Both the position numbers and the translations under genes were made by a program. A stretch of DNA of 64,000 nucleotides, taken from Secundilactobacillus angelensis (GTDB lineage Bacteria > Bacillota > Bacilli > Lactobacillales > Lactobacillaceae). The stretch covers positions 1 to 64,000 of the forward strand of contig NZ_JAAXLJ010000003.1 in NCBI RefSeq assembly GCF_012641075.1, read 5' to 3'. Below the pieces are notes generated by a model. It was not told where the DNA came from. It was given only the letters and a program-made list of their open reading frames with translations, and did not search any database. Each line of letters opens with the position of its first letter. The stretch's first letter is position 1. Positions 20,819 to 25,888 of the stretch are shown one piece after another.

Positions 20819-21119
20819 TTTAATTACGGATGAGCTTGGTACCGCCCTTGATAAGGACTTTCGGCAAGCATTAATCTCCAATTTTAAAGCGATCGAGCTG
20901 GAGCTAAATAACATTCACACGGATATCACATCGCTGCAGACAGCTGATCAGACAGCTAGTCCAACAGTTACACAAGATGATTTAACTAAAGCAGTCGACA
21001 GCTTAACCAGTCGAATTAACCGGATCGTACTAGGGATTGACAGTGATTCGATTGAGATGGTAGTAACACAAATCTTAGAAGAAAAGGGAGTGATAAAGGA
21101 TGCAGACACTAACGTATAG
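20808..21119 (+). CDS. Small coiled-coil tail protein, unknown
   Basis: About 103 residues, starting at GTG 20808 behind AGAGGGTGA. It is acidic with an amphipathic helix (F-K-A-I-E-L-E-L-N-N-I) and a second helix after a Thr/Gln linker, suggesting a trimeric coiled coil typical of baseplate connectors. It overlaps the previous gene by 11 bases and the next by 20. Function unknown. Confidence 0.6.
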   Translation: MAVSLITDELGTALDKDFRQALISNFKAIELELNNIHTDITSLQTADQTASPTVTQDDLTKAVDSLTSRINRIVLGIDSDSIEMVVTQILEEKGVIKDADTNV

Positions 21120-22497
21120 TATTGGTTCAGATAAACGAGCCGTGGTAAAAGACTTGCAAAACTTCACAGTCGACTTTTCCGGCAGTGATTATAACTGGGT
21201 GCAGGCACGCCAATACGAGCGTGACATGCGGCAGGTCTTTGTCAATGTGCAGAACGCAGATGGCTCACCCTTTGATTTAACGGGGTGCAACATTGTTTTT
21301 GAAGGCATTTTACCGAATAAAGTTAATCGAGTAATCGATTCTAAGCACGGGGTTATTTTAGATCCCACAAACGGGCAATTCCGGTTTGATATGCCAGGAC
21401 AAGCTTTTGCTGTAGCCGGTTCATATCAACAAGCCTTCTTCCGCATCATGCGAGCAGGCAGCAGTATTACTACACTGGAATTTGATTTAGAAGTTTTAGC
21501 TGACAAAGTGATCTCTGATTTGCTACCTGCTGATTACATCACGCCGTTTGAAGATCTATACGGTGATCTAGAAGATGTAATCACCAAAGCAAATTCAGAC
21601 ATTAAAACGGCACTGGATAATGGCAATAAAAGCATTGCAGATTTAATCACAAAATCTGGTATAGATGTAGCTACTGCTGTGGACGCAATCACAGCCAAGG
21701 GCGACTCAGTTTTTGACACGCTGACTAAACAAGGCGCTGATGTTACCACTTTACTGACCACACTAGAAGCCCAGATTAAAACAGATGGTATCGCTAAGCT
21801 TACTGACTTAAACAATTATGTAAAAATCAACAGTGACGGTACTTTGAATATCCAAGGGACGACCACCAACTTTGCTAGTGCTGAGCAATTACAGCCACAA
21901 CTATTAAGCAAACCAACAGATGCTCAGGTAGCTGCTAATTCTGGTAATACAGACACTTTTGTGGCAGTTAAAGGTCAGGAATATTATGTAAGTGCTTTAG
22001 TATCGATGACGACAGAAGGCGATGTATTTAAGATCACCTTTAAAGACTCAGCTGGTTCCAGTACGGATGTGGTAGCAGATACTACCTTAAACGCAAGTGC
22101 AATTGGTCAAGGTAAATGGAAAGCAACCGCGGATGGTACCGTGACGGTATCTACCAGTGAAAAAGGCACGGATGTTAAGTATCAGCATTTAACAGTCACT
22201 CAAACTGGCAATTATGTACCGTATGAACGAGCGATGGCTAACAAGTATGTCCCTCAAACGGCAGTCAATTTACCAACTGATTTAGTCCATACTGCTGACC
22301 TAACAGCATTACAGGCTACACTTAAAAAGTATACTGATGATGCTGAACAGGCAGCCATCGACCATATTCAGCCAATGATCACTGCCGAATTTACCAAGCG
22401 TAACGCACCAAGCTCATGGTGGACCGGTGACGCTACTGCATACGCTGCTATCACACCGAAGGTTGCTGATGCTTATTATGATGTGGTAGAAAGTTAG
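21100..22497 (+). CDS. Baseplate upper protein (BppU-type)
   Basis: 465 residues. The N-terminal 140 (R-Q-Y-E-R-D-M-R-Q-V-F-V-N-V, then G-S-Y-Q-Q-A-F-F-R-I and L-E-F-D-L-E-V) match the BppU N-terminal domain that anchors receptor-binding modules to the baseplate. A coiled-coil and linker segment (about 160-260) and a carbohydrate-binding-like beta domain (V-S-A-L-V-S-M-T ... Y-V-P-Y-E-R) follow. It is the structural base for the variable genes downstream. Confidence 0.82.
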   Translation: MQTLTYSIGSDKRAVVKDLQNFTVDFSGSDYNWVQARQYERDMRQVFVNVQNADGSPFDLTGCNIVFEGILPNKVNRVIDSKHGVILDPTNGQFRFDMPGQAFAVAGSYQQAFFRIMRAGSSITTLEFDLEVLADKVISDLLPADYITPFEDLYGDLEDVITKANSDIKTALDNGNKSIADLITKSGIDVATAVDAITAKGDSVFDTLTKQGADVTTLLTTLEAQIKTDGIAKLTDLNNYVKINSDGTLNIQGTTTNFASAEQLQPQLLSKPTDAQVAANSGNTDTFVAVKGQEYYVSALVSMTTEGDVFKITFKDSAGSSTDVVADTTLNASAIGQGKWKATADGTVTVSTSEKGTDVKYQHLTVTQTGNYVPYERAMANKYVPQTAVNLPTDLVHTADLTALQATLKKYTDDAEQAAIDHIQPMITAEFTKRNAPSSWWTGDATAYAAITPKVADAYYDVVES

Positions 22498-22505
22498 GTG
22501 AGAAA

Positions 22506-22940
22506 ATGCCAGAAACAACTAATGCTAAAGAGGTTTTAAAAAGATTCATTGGGACTAACCAATCCTTTACTTCAAAAACTATTACGGTTTTTCCGGTTGA
22601 ATTAAATACGGCGATTGTCACTGGTGAAATGTATATTCTCGTAGAACCAAGTGATGACACCAAGGGCTTGGTCATCGGCCGTTGGCAGGCAGTTAAGGAT
22701 AGCCCACAAGCTGATTTCGGTAAGGTGATCACTGATCGGGTTGTAAATTCAAATGGCAGCTATATTTATTTCTCACAAGGTGGCTGGCCAACTGTTGCTG
22801 GTGGTACGGGAGCAACTTCTTCCGGATACAGTTTCATGCACATTAACGATAACATCGTTAGTAGTGTTGGTGATTCTGAGACGTTTTACCACAACAATGG
22901 TATTTACAATTTTGTACTGCCAGTTTCAATCAGTAATTAA
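22506..22940 (+). CDS. Receptor-region tail protein A
   Basis: 144 residues. The N-terminus M-P-E-T-T-N-A-K-E-V-L-K-R-F-I-G closely resembles that of the gene at 23748 (M-P-Q-I-T-N-A-K-R-V-L-H-K-Y-I-G), so these are paralogues with a shared attachment segment and divergent beta-rich C-termini. Lying right after BppU, it is a likely head domain or accessory receptor-binding protein. Unlike the next two receptor genes it has no poly-G leader. Confidence 0.6.
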   Translation: MPETTNAKEVLKRFIGTNQSFTSKTITVFPVELNTAIVTGEMYILVEPSDDTKGLVIGRWQAVKDSPQADFGKVITDRVVNSNGSYIYFSQGGWPTVAGGTGATSSGYSFMHINDNIVSSVGDSETFYHNNGIYNFVLPVSISN

Positions 22941-22952
22941 GGAGGGTACACT

Positions 22953-23009
22953 ATGAACGTTGATATGACAGTCTTTATAACCCTTGGGGGGGTAAAAATC
23001 ACCCTCTGA
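22953..23009 (+). CDS. Leader ORF 1 with G7 tract
   Basis: An 18-codon ORF with a strong site (AAGGAGGG at 22939-22946): M-N-V-D-M-T-V-F-I-T-L, then a run of seven G (22986-22992) and a stop at 23007. Its opening residues match leader ORF 2 at 23637. In the frame that a G8 tract would select, translation would run 32 codons and stop at 23048-23050, 3 bases past the ATG of the following gene. The leader may therefore control that gene by translational coupling. Confidence 0.5.
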   Translation: MNVDMTVFITLGGVKITL

Positions 23010-23042
23010 ACCACGGCAAATTAGACATTGGGGGCGACCTCA

Positions 23043-23600
23043 ATGCCTGAATATCGTGGATCAATAAAAATTACCAGTCCCAACATTGGTAGTAAAAGAA
23101 TTGTAGCTAAATATCGAGGCACCACTAAGTTTTACTCTGCATACGTGCCTATAGGAACATTACTATATGATTTTAGTGGATATGCCTTGGGCTTTGGTGC
23201 TGAACATGTGGGTGGTGCTACAAATCCACAAGATCCAAAGATAAGAGTATTGAGCAGTAATACTATTGTGCTTACTGCCTCAGCTGATAAAATCGCCCAT
23301 GGAATTGCTTTCAAAACAGATAAAAATGCCGCCCAATATTACCCACAGCCGAGTGCATTGGGTGTTAGATCGCCGTTTAAACCAGCCTATACTTTTCAAG
23401 TTACTAAAGCACAGCTGGCAGTGGGTTTTGTTTATGCAACTATTGGGAGTACTAAATTATCAGTTACTTTAAAAGGAAATCAATTAAGCTTTACATCTAC
23501 CCCAATTCCGTCAGGATACCCTAATGTTGGGACTGGCTATGATTTTGCCGGTAGTGAGAATTTTAAATTTGTTTTATTTGATTCAATTACAGCCTATTAA
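23043..23600 (+). CDS. Receptor-region tail protein B
   Basis: 185 residues, beginning M-P-E-Y-R-G-S-I-K-I. ATG 23043 is preferred over the in-frame TTG 23028. The only ribosome-site-like sequence is a weak GGGGG, so efficient translation may need coupling from the leader before it. The body is beta-rich and Gly/Ser/Thr-rich and ends F-V-L-F-D-S-I-T-A-Y, consistent with a tail-tip or receptor-binding beta-sandwich. Family not recognised. Codon use is more AT-rich than in the structural genes upstream, a sign of module exchange. Confidence 0.6.
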   Translation: MPEYRGSIKITSPNIGSKRIVAKYRGTTKFYSAYVPIGTLLYDFSGYALGFGAEHVGGATNPQDPKIRVLSSNTIVLTASADKIAHGIAFKTDKNAAQYYPQPSALGVRSPFKPAYTFQVTKAQLAVGFVYATIGSTKLSVTLKGNQLSFTSTPIPSGYPNVGTGYDFAGSENFKFVLFDSITAY

Positions 23601-23636
23601 GGCTTTTTATTTTACTCAATTTAAGGAGTGATATGT

Positions 23637-23687
23637 ATGACAAACGTTGATTTAACAGCGTTTCTAAATATGGGGGGGGGTGCATAG
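23637..23687 (+). CDS. Leader ORF 2 with G9 tract
   Basis: A 16-codon ORF behind AAGGAG: M-T-N-V-D-L-T-A-F-L-N-M-G, with a run of nine G (23672-23680). With the present length it stops at 23685. With G8 it would be read for 36 codons, ending at TAA 23746-23748, which overlaps the ATG of the next gene as TAATG, the ideal arrangement for translational restart. The opening is homologous to leader ORF 1. Confidence 0.5.
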   Translation: MTNVDLTAFLNMGGGA

Positions 23688-23747
23688 CCCTCACCTAAAC
23701 CGCTTAGAGCTTTGCAAGCCTTCAATCAGTGATTGGGGGCTATTTTA

Positions 23748-24167
23748 ATGCCACAAATAACAAATGCCAAGCGAGTGTTGCACAAGTATATCGGTCAAAC
23801 ACAAACTTATAAAGATACAGTAGGCGTTTGGCAAGAAATTAGTTGGAGTTCAAGTAATACCACGCCGTCAAGCGGAACAGTTCAGTTCATGGATATTGGT
23901 GGAATGATTATTTTTAAAGAGAATCTACTATTTACTTCTAACAGCACTAATGGAAGTTTAACAATCAAGAATATTCCAAGCCAATATACCAATTTGCAAT
24001 TTAAATCTATTATGCTTAATCAAGAAAGTTGGTCAAATTCAGCAAACATTGCTGACAATGAATCAGTAACAATATCAGGTCGAAACTTATCACTTAGCTT
24101 TTCTGGCATCGGCCAGACGCACTGGCCGCTTATAAATGTTCGACTTTATTATGGTCAACAAAATTAA
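23748..24167 (+). CDS. Receptor-region tail protein C
   Basis: 139 residues, a paralogue of the protein at 22506 in its first 16 residues (T-N-A-K-R-V-L-H-K-Y-I-G). The rest is Ser/Asn-rich beta structure (W-S-S-S-N-T-T ... L-S-L-S-F-S-G-I-G), probably the receptor-binding part. ATG 23748 overlaps the potential stop of the G8 form of leader 2; it is preceded only by a weak GGGGG. Confidence 0.6.
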   Translation: MPQITNAKRVLHKYIGQTQTYKDTVGVWQEISWSSSNTTPSSGTVQFMDIGGMIIFKENLLFTSNSTNGSLTIKNIPSQYTNLQFKSIMLNQESWSNSANIADNESVTISGRNLSLSFSGIGQTHWPLINVRLYYGQQN

Positions 24168-24182
24168 AGGAGGCCATCAATT

Positions 24183-24668
24183 ATGGCAGATACACCAGCA
24201 GTAACGTCACCTAAGTATGTTCAGGTGGACGAAAATAACTATGTAAATGTGGTTAAAAGCACACTAACTGACAGTGATGACGCAACTAAATGGATCAAGC
24301 TTTTTATCCCGTCAGCCTTCCAGACTGATTTCGGTAAGTTCTTCGACAAATATCAAGTCGATCCCAATACCAAGGCATTAATCCCACGTCCTGGTGCTGA
24401 CAATCCATCAATCGACACCGTTCAACAATCACTAAAAGACACCAATGCCGAACTGGTAGCCGTCAAGCAAGCCAACAGTGACTTGGGCGATAAACTAACT
24501 GCAGCTAATACAACGATCACTGATCTGCAAACTAAGTACAAGCAGGACAGTGACACTACTACAGAGGCCATTTTGGAATTATCTGACCAAGTTCTGTCTG
24601 CTGTTCCAGCTGGCAGTTCAACCACGCCAGCTAGTGACACCACAACACCCGCAGGAGGTGGTAAATAA
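24183..24668 (+). CDS. Tail-tip protein with C-terminal coiled coil
   Basis: 161 residues. The N-terminal 60 form a compact domain (P-K-Y-V-Q-V-D-E-N-N-Y-V ... F-D-K-Y-Q-V-D), followed by a coiled coil (about 78-130, heptads L-K-D-T-N-A-E-L) and a Ser/Thr/Pro-rich tail. Common in lactobacillar phages after the receptor genes. Its stop overlaps the following ATG (TAATG). Function not established. Confidence 0.6.
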   Translation: MADTPAVTSPKYVQVDENNYVNVVKSTLTDSDDATKWIKLFIPSAFQTDFGKFFDKYQVDPNTKALIPRPGADNPSIDTVQQSLKDTNAELVAVKQANSDLGDKLTAANTTITDLQTKYKQDSDTTTEAILELSDQVLSAVPAGSSTTPASDTTTPAGGGK

Positions 24669-24781
24669 TGAACGCATTAGCCACTTTATACGCTGAATCA
24701 GTTAAGGCTGGAAACCGCAAGATTGAAGACGTTCCAGTTGTCATTCGTCCCAAAGTTCAAGCAATTCTAGATCAAAAATAA
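24668..24781 (+). CDS. CD1375-like small phage protein, copy 1
   Basis: 37 residues: a helix L-Y-A-E-S-V-K-A-G, a turn, then I-E-D-V-P and a second helix. This is the CD1375/XkdX-neighbourhood type of short protein located near holin genes in many Firmicutes phages. Two longer relatives lie at 24799 and 25658. Starts on the stop of the previous gene. Confidence 0.65.
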   Translation: MNALATLYAESVKAGNRKIEDVPVVIRPKVQAILDQK

Positions 24782-24798
24782 GAAAGAGGTAATCAATT

Positions 24799-24972
24799 AT
24801 GACTTTAAATAAAAAGTTTTCTGCTTTAACCATGCTTTACGCTGCTAACGTGCTTGACGGTGGCCGTACCCTTGAAGAAGTCCCCGAAGTTCTGCGTGAT
24901 GATGTTGCCGGCATCCTAAAAAACGACGACAGCGCCGATTCTACTTCTGCATCTTCTACACCTGCTGCTTAA
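24799..24972 (+). CDS. CD1375-like small phage protein, copy 2
   Basis: 57 residues behind GAGGT. L-Y-A-A-N-V-L-D-G-G-R-T-L-E-E-V-P-E-V-L aligns position by position with copy 1, plus a Ser/Thr/Ala tail. The duplication suggests that subunits of one assembly are encoded side by side; function unknown. Confidence 0.68.
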   Translation: MTLNKKFSALTMLYAANVLDGGRTLEEVPEVLRDDVAGILKNDDSADSTSASSTPAA

Positions 24973-25023: not shown

Positions 25024-25404
25024 ATGTATCGAATTTTTGCTTGTATGAAAAACAACCCCTTTCACACCGTGATTGGGCTGGCGGAGCTGGGTATCGGTAT
25101 CCATCTCATTTCGCATGATCAATACTTCTTGTGGCCACCGGTCATTGATGGAGTCGCCAATGATGATATTGTTGGGGGCTTTTTTGTTTTGGTTGGTGCA
25201 GTCATGCTCTACTGGGTGTATGACACTAAGCGTGCAGTACGATTAGATCATGTACTCTTAATCGCGTCTTCGTTTCTGATGTGTGTGTTGACACTATATC
25301 AACTAATGCATTGGATTGTCTTAGGTATCGACATGCCGTGGATTAGTAACGCCGCAATAACCTCGGTCATTATGATCTTAGCCAGTCGGAGCGACAGCGA
25401 GTGA
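25024..25404 (+). CDS. Phage membrane protein
   Basis: 126 residues with four hydrophobic stretches (about 14-29, 47-65, 75-93, 104-121). No known motif. Its place among the lysis genes suggests an accessory membrane protein, for example a holin partner or superinfection-exclusion protein; this is inference. The stop overlaps the following start. Confidence 0.6.
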   Translation: MYRIFACMKNNPFHTVIGLAELGIGIHLISHDQYFLWPPVIDGVANDDIVGGFFVLVGAVMLYWVYDTKRAVRLDHVLLIASSFLMCVLTLYQLMHWIVLGIDMPWISNAAITSVIMILASRSDSE

Positions 25405-25657: not shown

Positions 25658-25888
25658 ATGTTAACAAAAGATTATAGTACACCCGTTATTTTAGAGGCTT
25701 CCAATGTTATTGATGGCGGTAAGCAATTTGAAAATGTCCCTGTATTCTTACAGGGACAGGTGAAAGAACTTGTTGAATCATTAGGAATTGATCTATCGAG
25801 TAACAAGCCTGCTGCACCCAGCAATGTTGCTGCAGTCAAGGCAGCAACAAAGAGTGATACTATTGTGGTCACGCCTAAGGAGGCGTAG
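25658..25888 (+). CDS. CD1375-like small phage protein, copy 3
   Basis: 76 residues. I-L-E-A-S-N-V-I-D-G-G-K-Q-F-E-N-V-P aligns with copies 1 and 2 (24668, 24799); it has a longer Ala/Val/Lys tail. The stop is 2 bases before the holin start and GGAGG overlaps its last codons, so it is co-translated with the holin. Confidence 0.62.
   Translation: MLTKDYSTPVILEASNVIDGGKQFENVPVFLQGQVKELVESLGIDLSSNKPAAPSNVAAVKAATKSDTIVVTPKEA

Follow-up and report, generated by a model that had tools for sequence, protein, structure and literature searches.

The closest described systems are found in Campylobacter phages, which carry hypermutable poly-G receptor-binding genes (Sorensen et al. 2021, Cell Rep 35:109214, as cited in PMC10877375, PMC11868660, and PMC9311878). 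According to the passages that cite this work, phages phase-vary through repeat-mediated switching of a receptor-binding protein (PMC11868660), and the contingency homopolymers of Campylobacter comprise 7–11 G (PMC9311878). The locus described here resembles these phage genes, as they are presented in the citing passage (PMC11868660), in its phage-borne G homopolymer, in its association with tail genes, which here are probably receptor-binding, and in a switching that would be repeat-mediated. It differs in that the tract in the lactobacilli lies in a separate leader ORF upstream of the gene, in its predicted RNA hairpins and overlapping stop and start, in the presence of several tail genes per prophage, each with a leader, and in its Gram-positive hosts. 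In the Campylobacter phages of the 2021 study, the tracts reportedly lie inside the receptor-binding gene.

The contingency loci of Campylobacter, Neisseria, and Helicobacter are similar in homopolymer length, in having ON and OFF states, and in the likely origin of these states by slipped-strand mispairing; here, in contrast, the tract would work through a leader ORF and predicted coupling, and not from within a surface protein gene or a promoter. A further system, in which a small RNA targets a G repeat in an mRNA leader, is comparable in that a length-variable G repeat tunes the gene behind it, whereas in the present locus the repeat shifts the reading frame of the leader and is predicted to pair within the leader itself. 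Mu-type invertible tail-fiber segments and diversity-generating retroelements also give one phage several tail specificities, but the reading proposed below needs neither DNA inversion nor reverse transcription. The principle of poly-G switching is thus known, and the separate leader ORF, the coupling, and the hosts are what differ. The original prediction recognized this architecture in no described system; to judge from the articles that cite them, the poly-G receptor-binding genes of Campylobacter phages are such a relative. A search of the full-text literature, consisting mostly of papers outside subscription, returned no publication on such leaders in lactobacilli among the matches listed.

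The window, by which we mean the whole stretch of 64,000 nucleotides of Secundilactobacillus angelensis DNA that was analyzed (contig NZ_JAAXLJ010000003.1), contains a prophage tail module with genes for a tape measure protein, Dit, a Tal-like endopeptidase, and a BppU_N protein, followed by the small genes A, B, and C, a further small gene, a holin, and a GH25 lysin (Table 1). Tail gene A adjoins the BppU gene directly. A, B, and C were named tail genes on position alone, and searches of Pfam and PHROG gave no family match for any of the three; the holin gene has no Pfam match. Possible relatives of tail B, with 20–23% identity, stand behind leaders in G001 and G138 (G numbers denote genomes and L numbers the loci or stretches examined). 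Among the products behind leaders in relatives, four of seven have weak matches to PHROG tail families (best E 1.6e-9 to 1e-5), two of these four along the C-terminal part of a minor tail protein, and the G067b tail protein finds four records in the phage collection at about 32–38% identity, one of which is annotated as a minor tail protein. By analogy with lactococcal baseplates, the position behind BppU presumably points to a receptor-binding role for the tail genes; on this position and the PHROG names, the tail products behind leaders are probably receptor-binding proteins. Downstream of the tail genes, at 24668–24972 and 25658–25888 of the window and likewise in relatives, lie several very small ORFs of similar sequence, which may encode repeated XkdX-like proteins.

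Table 1. Features of the tail gene array in the window, with the observations on which each assignment is based
Feature	Coordinates	Strand	Basis and remarks
BppU_N baseplate upper protein-like gene	21100..22497	+	Pfam PF10651, E 8.5e-25; PHROG minor tail protein among matches; 5′ of the tail gene array
Tail gene A	22506..22940	+	ORF; no family match; 27% identity to tail C in alignment; no visible leader
Leader B ORF, own frame (OFF)	22953..23009	+	18 codons + stop; ATG at 22953; AGGAGG upstream at 22940-22945; reads MNVDMTVFITLGGVKITL
Predicted hairpin with the G tract of leader B as 5′ arm	22984..23010	+	z -3.64 for 22980-23060
G7 tract of leader B	22986..22992	+	G-run count
Long frame past tract B	22993..23050	+	Stop overlaps the tail B start by 8 nt
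Predicted hairpin with GGGGG ribosome site and ATG of tail B	23026..23045	+	Folding
Tail gene B (185 aa)	23043..23600	+	ORF; no family match; "tail" from position
Leader C ORF, own frame (OFF)	23637..23687	+	16 codons + stop; ATG at 23637; AAGGAG upstream at 23623-23628; reads MTNVDLTAFLNMGGGA
Predicted hairpin with the G tract of leader C as 5′ arm	23671..23697	+	z -1.46 for 23666-23765, by itself not significant
G9 tract of leader C	23672..23680	+	9 G, including the G of the preceding ATG codon
Long frame past tract C	23681..23748	+	Stop TAA overlaps the tail C start (TAATG)
Predicted 11-bp hairpin with GGGGG ribosome site of tail C	23717..23741	+	Centroid fold
Tail gene C (139 aa)	23748..24167	+	ORF; no family match; "tail" from position
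Holin gene, used as probe for related prophages	25024..25404	+	tblastn hits to 45 Lactobacillus/Lacticaseibacillus phage records, many of them annotated as holin

In leaders B and C, exactly one of the three frames is long past the tract, and this frame, which reaches the tail start, differs from the leader's own frame, which stops soon after the tract. The long frame of leader C closes at TAATG, its stop codon reaching the first base of tail C (23748), and that of leader B ends 8 bases inside tail B (23043–23050), such that the original prediction of both ending on the start codon of the next gene is exact for C and only approximate for B. The shared leader opening that it described, NVD(L/M)T(A/V)F, is indeed present in both. 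Within the window, however, the argument that chance would hardly make two units follow one rule is not supported: with the stretch from tract to start shuffled, a frame ending within −6 to +20 of the tail start has a chance of 0.59 for B and 0.44 for C, and of about 0.26 for the two jointly, which is not significant. A run of 9 G occurs once in the window, against 0.27 expected from dinucleotide shuffling (at least once in 18 of 100 shuffles), and the four 7-G matches, with 3.2 expected, are no excess. Because the two leaders of the window alone fit chance, the significance of the geometry comes from the relatives.

The comparison set comprises 21 leaders from 12 genomes in five Lactobacillaceae genera and one IMG/VR contig, from a sample with one genome per species and with tract lengths taken at assembly level. 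Left out of the 21 are the leader of G137 (not coupled), that of G136 (L068, cut at a contig end), the second copies in G338, and L227, since both of its printed leader stretches are identical to those of G067. Searching 41 genomes with DNA gave matches in four: the window itself, G001, which has an intact 35-codon leader ending one base before the ATG of the next tail gene, and two that share only a terminator-like palindrome. The palindrome AACGTTGATTTAACAGCGTT lies at the start of leader C (23643–23662) and, as judged by eye, recurs in two other Secundilactobacillus genomes (L003, L004 near 1502) as the stem of hairpins that resemble terminators; close relatives of it constitute the inner hairpin after the tract in leaders of the genus of G384.

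Genes of the module served as further probes. The small gene behind the tails was found in 6 of 397 family genomes and led to leaders in G138, G080, and G182, and the holin, found in 44 of the 397, led to the G137 leader and to two in G384. Forty prophage regions were covered in this way (38 at holins, two at the small gene), six of which hold a leader, one of these cut by the contig start; no leader turned up in the remaining 34 when they were scanned for ORFs preceded by at least six consecutive G. A search of the genus of G384 (21 genomes) with one of its leaders, together with an RNA model, added further leaders. The model, R1, found 15 strong places in six of these 21 genomes; a match in a seventh (E 0.04) has no G run nearby. 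Across the family, R1 matched 33 of 397 genomes at E 0.1 or below, and those in G067, G151, G196, G338, G367, G384, G080, and G182 were accepted, as was G128 by reading its locus; 11 loci checked among the other 24 matches (ten plus G000) have no leader. Order-wide, 10 of 227 genomes matched at E 0.05 or below, and the seven matches outside the family have no G run of six or more nearby.

In IMG/VR, two contigs contain leaders, one of them carrying the G067 sequences; one search there matched 35 stretches and another 74, and both times the leaders identified by eye were L200 and L227 only. Three IMG/VR stretches that match a gapped pattern (L019–L021) lack the leader layout, and the G-run scan found no leader at three IMG/VR relatives of the holin (L030–L032), two of which have little upstream DNA. 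Leader-length matches were confined to G182 and G080 among the 24 genomes of the genus of G182 and to G138 itself among the 35 of its own genus. The phage collection held no match to window 22900–24200, the G001 leader peptide, the small gene behind the tails, the G384 tail, the G080 tail DNA, or the G067 leader and tail DNA. The 14 records that it returned for the G182 leader peptide at E 6–10, from unrelated hosts, were taken as chance, as were peptide matches in 12 further family genomes (E 0.05–0.65). The G151 leader region had no match in the plasmid collection, tail C had none in IMG/VR, and window 22400–24400 and three further loci had none in Rfam.

The 21 leaders carry tracts of 6 G (two leaders), 7 G (four), 8 G (six), 9 G (five), 10 G (three), and 21 G (one). 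We designate a leader ON when its own frame reaches the tail start and OFF when it is out of that frame; 12 are ON and nine are OFF, the latter in offset class 2 (B, G080, G384a, and G384b) or offset class 1 (C, G151a, G151b, G067b, and the IMG/VR leader). In all nine OFF leaders, the stop of the leader's own frame lies at most about six codons past the tract. A frame past the tract ends within −6 to +20 of the tail start in 21 of 21 leaders, compared with 11.2 expected from shuffles, and a stop is at exactly +8 in 15 of them; that a frame merely reaches the tail start (21 against 16.7 expected) is less telling. A single frame does so in 19 leaders, and two frames do so in G338c and G128. Every leader has a candidate start with a ribosome-site-like motif and an open frame into the tract, and none was excluded for want of one; seven of the 12 ON leaders are exactly 35 codons long. 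The weakest of the set is G384b, whose long frame ends on an ATG opening only 22 codons.

Because flanking lengths differ, leaders can be ON at 6, 7, 8, 9, 10, or 21 G, and a universal G8 rule is therefore not borne out. The G8 alleles expected in relatives do exist, in frame and with the same geometry, in G001 and G138 among others, and the more general expectation of a variable G tract combined with coupling geometry is supported by the span of 6–21 G and by the geometry of all 21 leaders. Within single genomes, both leaders are ON (G367, G196), both are OFF (G384, the window), or the states are mixed (G067, G151), a distribution that does not bear out the suggestion that tails B and C are expressed alternately. 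The ON state is commoner than the third given by free drift, and the states thus need not be neutral.

The frames of G080 (L027:949–1050) and the closely related G182 (L026, near 2400 on the minus strand) differ through a T run adjoining the tract, which has 6 G in both. The 21-G tract of G367b (L192:1488–1508) is in frame and far longer than the others, and is perhaps long enough for a G-quadruplex. The 9-G leader of G137 (L050:426–590) has sequence in common with leader B past the tract; it is uncoupled, with a terminator-like hairpin and a separate ribosome site behind it, and any switch at this leader may act differently.

The assembly of G338, in seven contigs, contains two near-identical prophages about 41 kb apart (L344–L349, C1:1773222–1848066). 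Over at least 33.8 kb, the aligned copies show zero mismatches and one gap, a G in a leader tract, and this one G is the sole difference between L318 and L320 (3115 and 3116 bases). The copy with 9 G is ON and stops four bases inside the tail gene (ATGA), and the copy with 10 G is OFF; the second leader is of equal length in both. At assembly level, this pair is the one instance in which tract length differs between otherwise identical sequences, and the one-G difference could be a consensus error at a homopolymer. Because the relatives span 6–21 G and the G338 copies differ by one G, sequencing error at the tracts of the window, although possible, need not be invoked. In the 22.7 kb of G338 that were checked, there are two G/C runs of six or more, both of them leader tracts, and the 40 prophage regions, which total 296.5 kb, contain four G/C runs of at least eight, three of them leader tracts. 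The fourth begins at the first base of the G136 contig (L068:1–62) and is followed by an apparent leader remainder that ends at TAATG before a tail-like gene, as if the assembly had stopped at the tract.

Ten leaders that share one long frame were compared over the 45 bases preceding the ribosome-site part, and their differences per site are equal at the three codon positions (0.364, 0.370, and 0.357); G338, G196, and G196b read these nucleotides in a different frame. Judged by these comparisons, the feature that is kept is an open frame ending at the tail start and not a peptide; the expected conservation of the leader frames as peptide is not supported, given the absence of codon-position bias.

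Folding of the stretch from tract to tail start gives a mean z of −2.60, with 16 of 21 leaders below −2, compared with a mean of −0.38 and 14 of 129 below −2 for control gene starts (p 8e-8; controls with an upstream G run of six or more were excluded, and the 21-G tract of G367b was reduced to its last 14 G). Five leaders have z above −2, including leader C (z −1.05, not significant). In 12 leaders, from the genus of G384 and from IMG/VR, the G tract forms the 5′ arm of a conserved predicted stem with a CCCUUUU-like 3′ arm and an inner hairpin, and 97.6% and 89.3% of the cells in its two helices are paired across the alignment. The covariation score of 0.301, compared with 0.243 for shuffled alignments, was reached by 2 of 500 shuffles and falls when the partners are slid. 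Two of five covariation measures do not exceed shuffles, one of them being the count of pairs changed on both sides (four inner pairs, reached by 103 of 500 shuffles); nor is the number of pair types raised. In B, C, G001, G138, G182, and G080, the tract is predicted to pair with a C-rich stretch just 3′ of it. Together, the predictions support folding of the leader RNA.

A second predicted hairpin lies over the ribosome site of the tail gene, full in G001, G182, G080, and G067a and partial in others. The unpaired probability at tail starts is 0.367, compared with 0.455 at 155 control starts (p 0.002), and it is not below that of flank shuffles (9 of 21 below the shuffle mean). From minimum-energy structures and z-scores, the ribosome site of the tail gene is likely hidden in structure, a point on which the accessibility shuffles are neutral.

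Tract-length variation, the frame states, the stop/start geometry, and the excess of predicted RNA structure can all be read from the sequence, and they are consistent with the notion that each leader switches its downstream tail gene in a phase-variable manner, a reading to which we assign a probability of about 0.72. Slipped-strand mispairing, we infer, would lengthen or shorten the poly-G tract that the short leader ORF contains. In the ON state, a ribosome translating the long frame would cross both the tract hairpin and the hairpin covering the tail ribosome site and would stop on the tail start or a few bases beside it, and the tail gene would then be translated by coupling, of a strength that is likewise conjectural. 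In the OFF state, the ribosome would stop soon past the tract, the tail ribosome site would stay folded, and the tail protein would be poor or absent; this state may be leaky, because the tail genes keep recognizable ribosome sites. As leaders B and C are both OFF in the assembly, tail A would dominate in this prophage. With several tail genes and a switch for each, the particles released by a lysogen population could differ in their tail proteins, which are probably receptor-binding; once incorporated into the tail, these proteins might bind receptors, affect host range, and benefit the population.

Slippage might instead occur at the RNA level, with RNA polymerase or the ribosome giving a fixed minor in-frame fraction in every cell, whatever the length of the DNA tract. 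Homopolymers can be slippery for both RNA polymerase and ribosomes, and a stable predicted hairpin involves the tract, but a one-way programmed shift predicts one fixed offset, and the leaders show offset 0 (12 leaders), class 1 (five), and class 2 (four); as all three occur, a programmed one-way ribosomal frameshift was rejected. In addition, frameshift stimulator stems lie a few bases behind the slippery site, whereas the stem predicted here includes the tract itself. We consider slippage at the RNA level unlikely. The leader peptide could alternatively be the phase-variable product, as a small regulator or tail chaperone to which the coupling is incidental, and the ribosome sites of the leaders and the exact length of 35 codons in seven of 12 ON forms would suit this proposal. 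The long frame, however, shows no third-position excess, the middle parts are frame-swapped, and both length and peptide vary between genera, all of which argues for regarding a peptide product as quite improbable.

A more skeptical explanation is that the leaders are decaying remnant ORFs without function, with sequencing or assembly errors at their G tracts. Homopolymers are error-prone, and neither B nor C is in frame in this assembly; yet 12 of 21 leaders are in frame, the stop at the tail start is kept in 21 of 21, the layout recurs in five genera, and there is the excess of structure, and we judge this explanation to be even less probable than a peptide product. Lowest in our estimate stands the proposal that the G tract and hairpin act mainly as a transcription attenuator or pause, with the frame mattering only through the position at which the ribosome stops on the nascent transcript. 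The inner palindrome looks, by eye, like the terminator-like stems of other genomes in the genus (L003, L004), and this likeness and the terminator-like hairpin behind the G137 leader are in keeping with attenuation, but in the leaders that were folded the 3′ arm of the tract stem is the pyrimidine run itself, and no separate U tract is seen by eye directly behind it.

The phase-variable switch can also be cast in a modular form, in which a leader cassette of roughly 110 bases, consisting of a ribosome site, a start, a poly-G tract, a folding RNA, and a stop on the next start, would be placed by Lactobacillaceae phages before different tail genes, and in which independent random switching would yield a combinatorial mix of virions. 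We hold this modular form to be slightly better than an even bet. The leader layout amounts to a simple sequence signature that may escape gene callers, since the leaders are short and frequently appear broken. If the switch is real, temperate phages of lactobacilli would hedge their tail composition without gene loss, and the switch, a disposable leader, would be separate from the gene that it controls. Poly-G phase variation of phage tails would then extend beyond Campylobacter, to tract-driven phase variation in phages of Gram-positive bacteria that would operate through a disposable upstream ORF and not through the gene itself.
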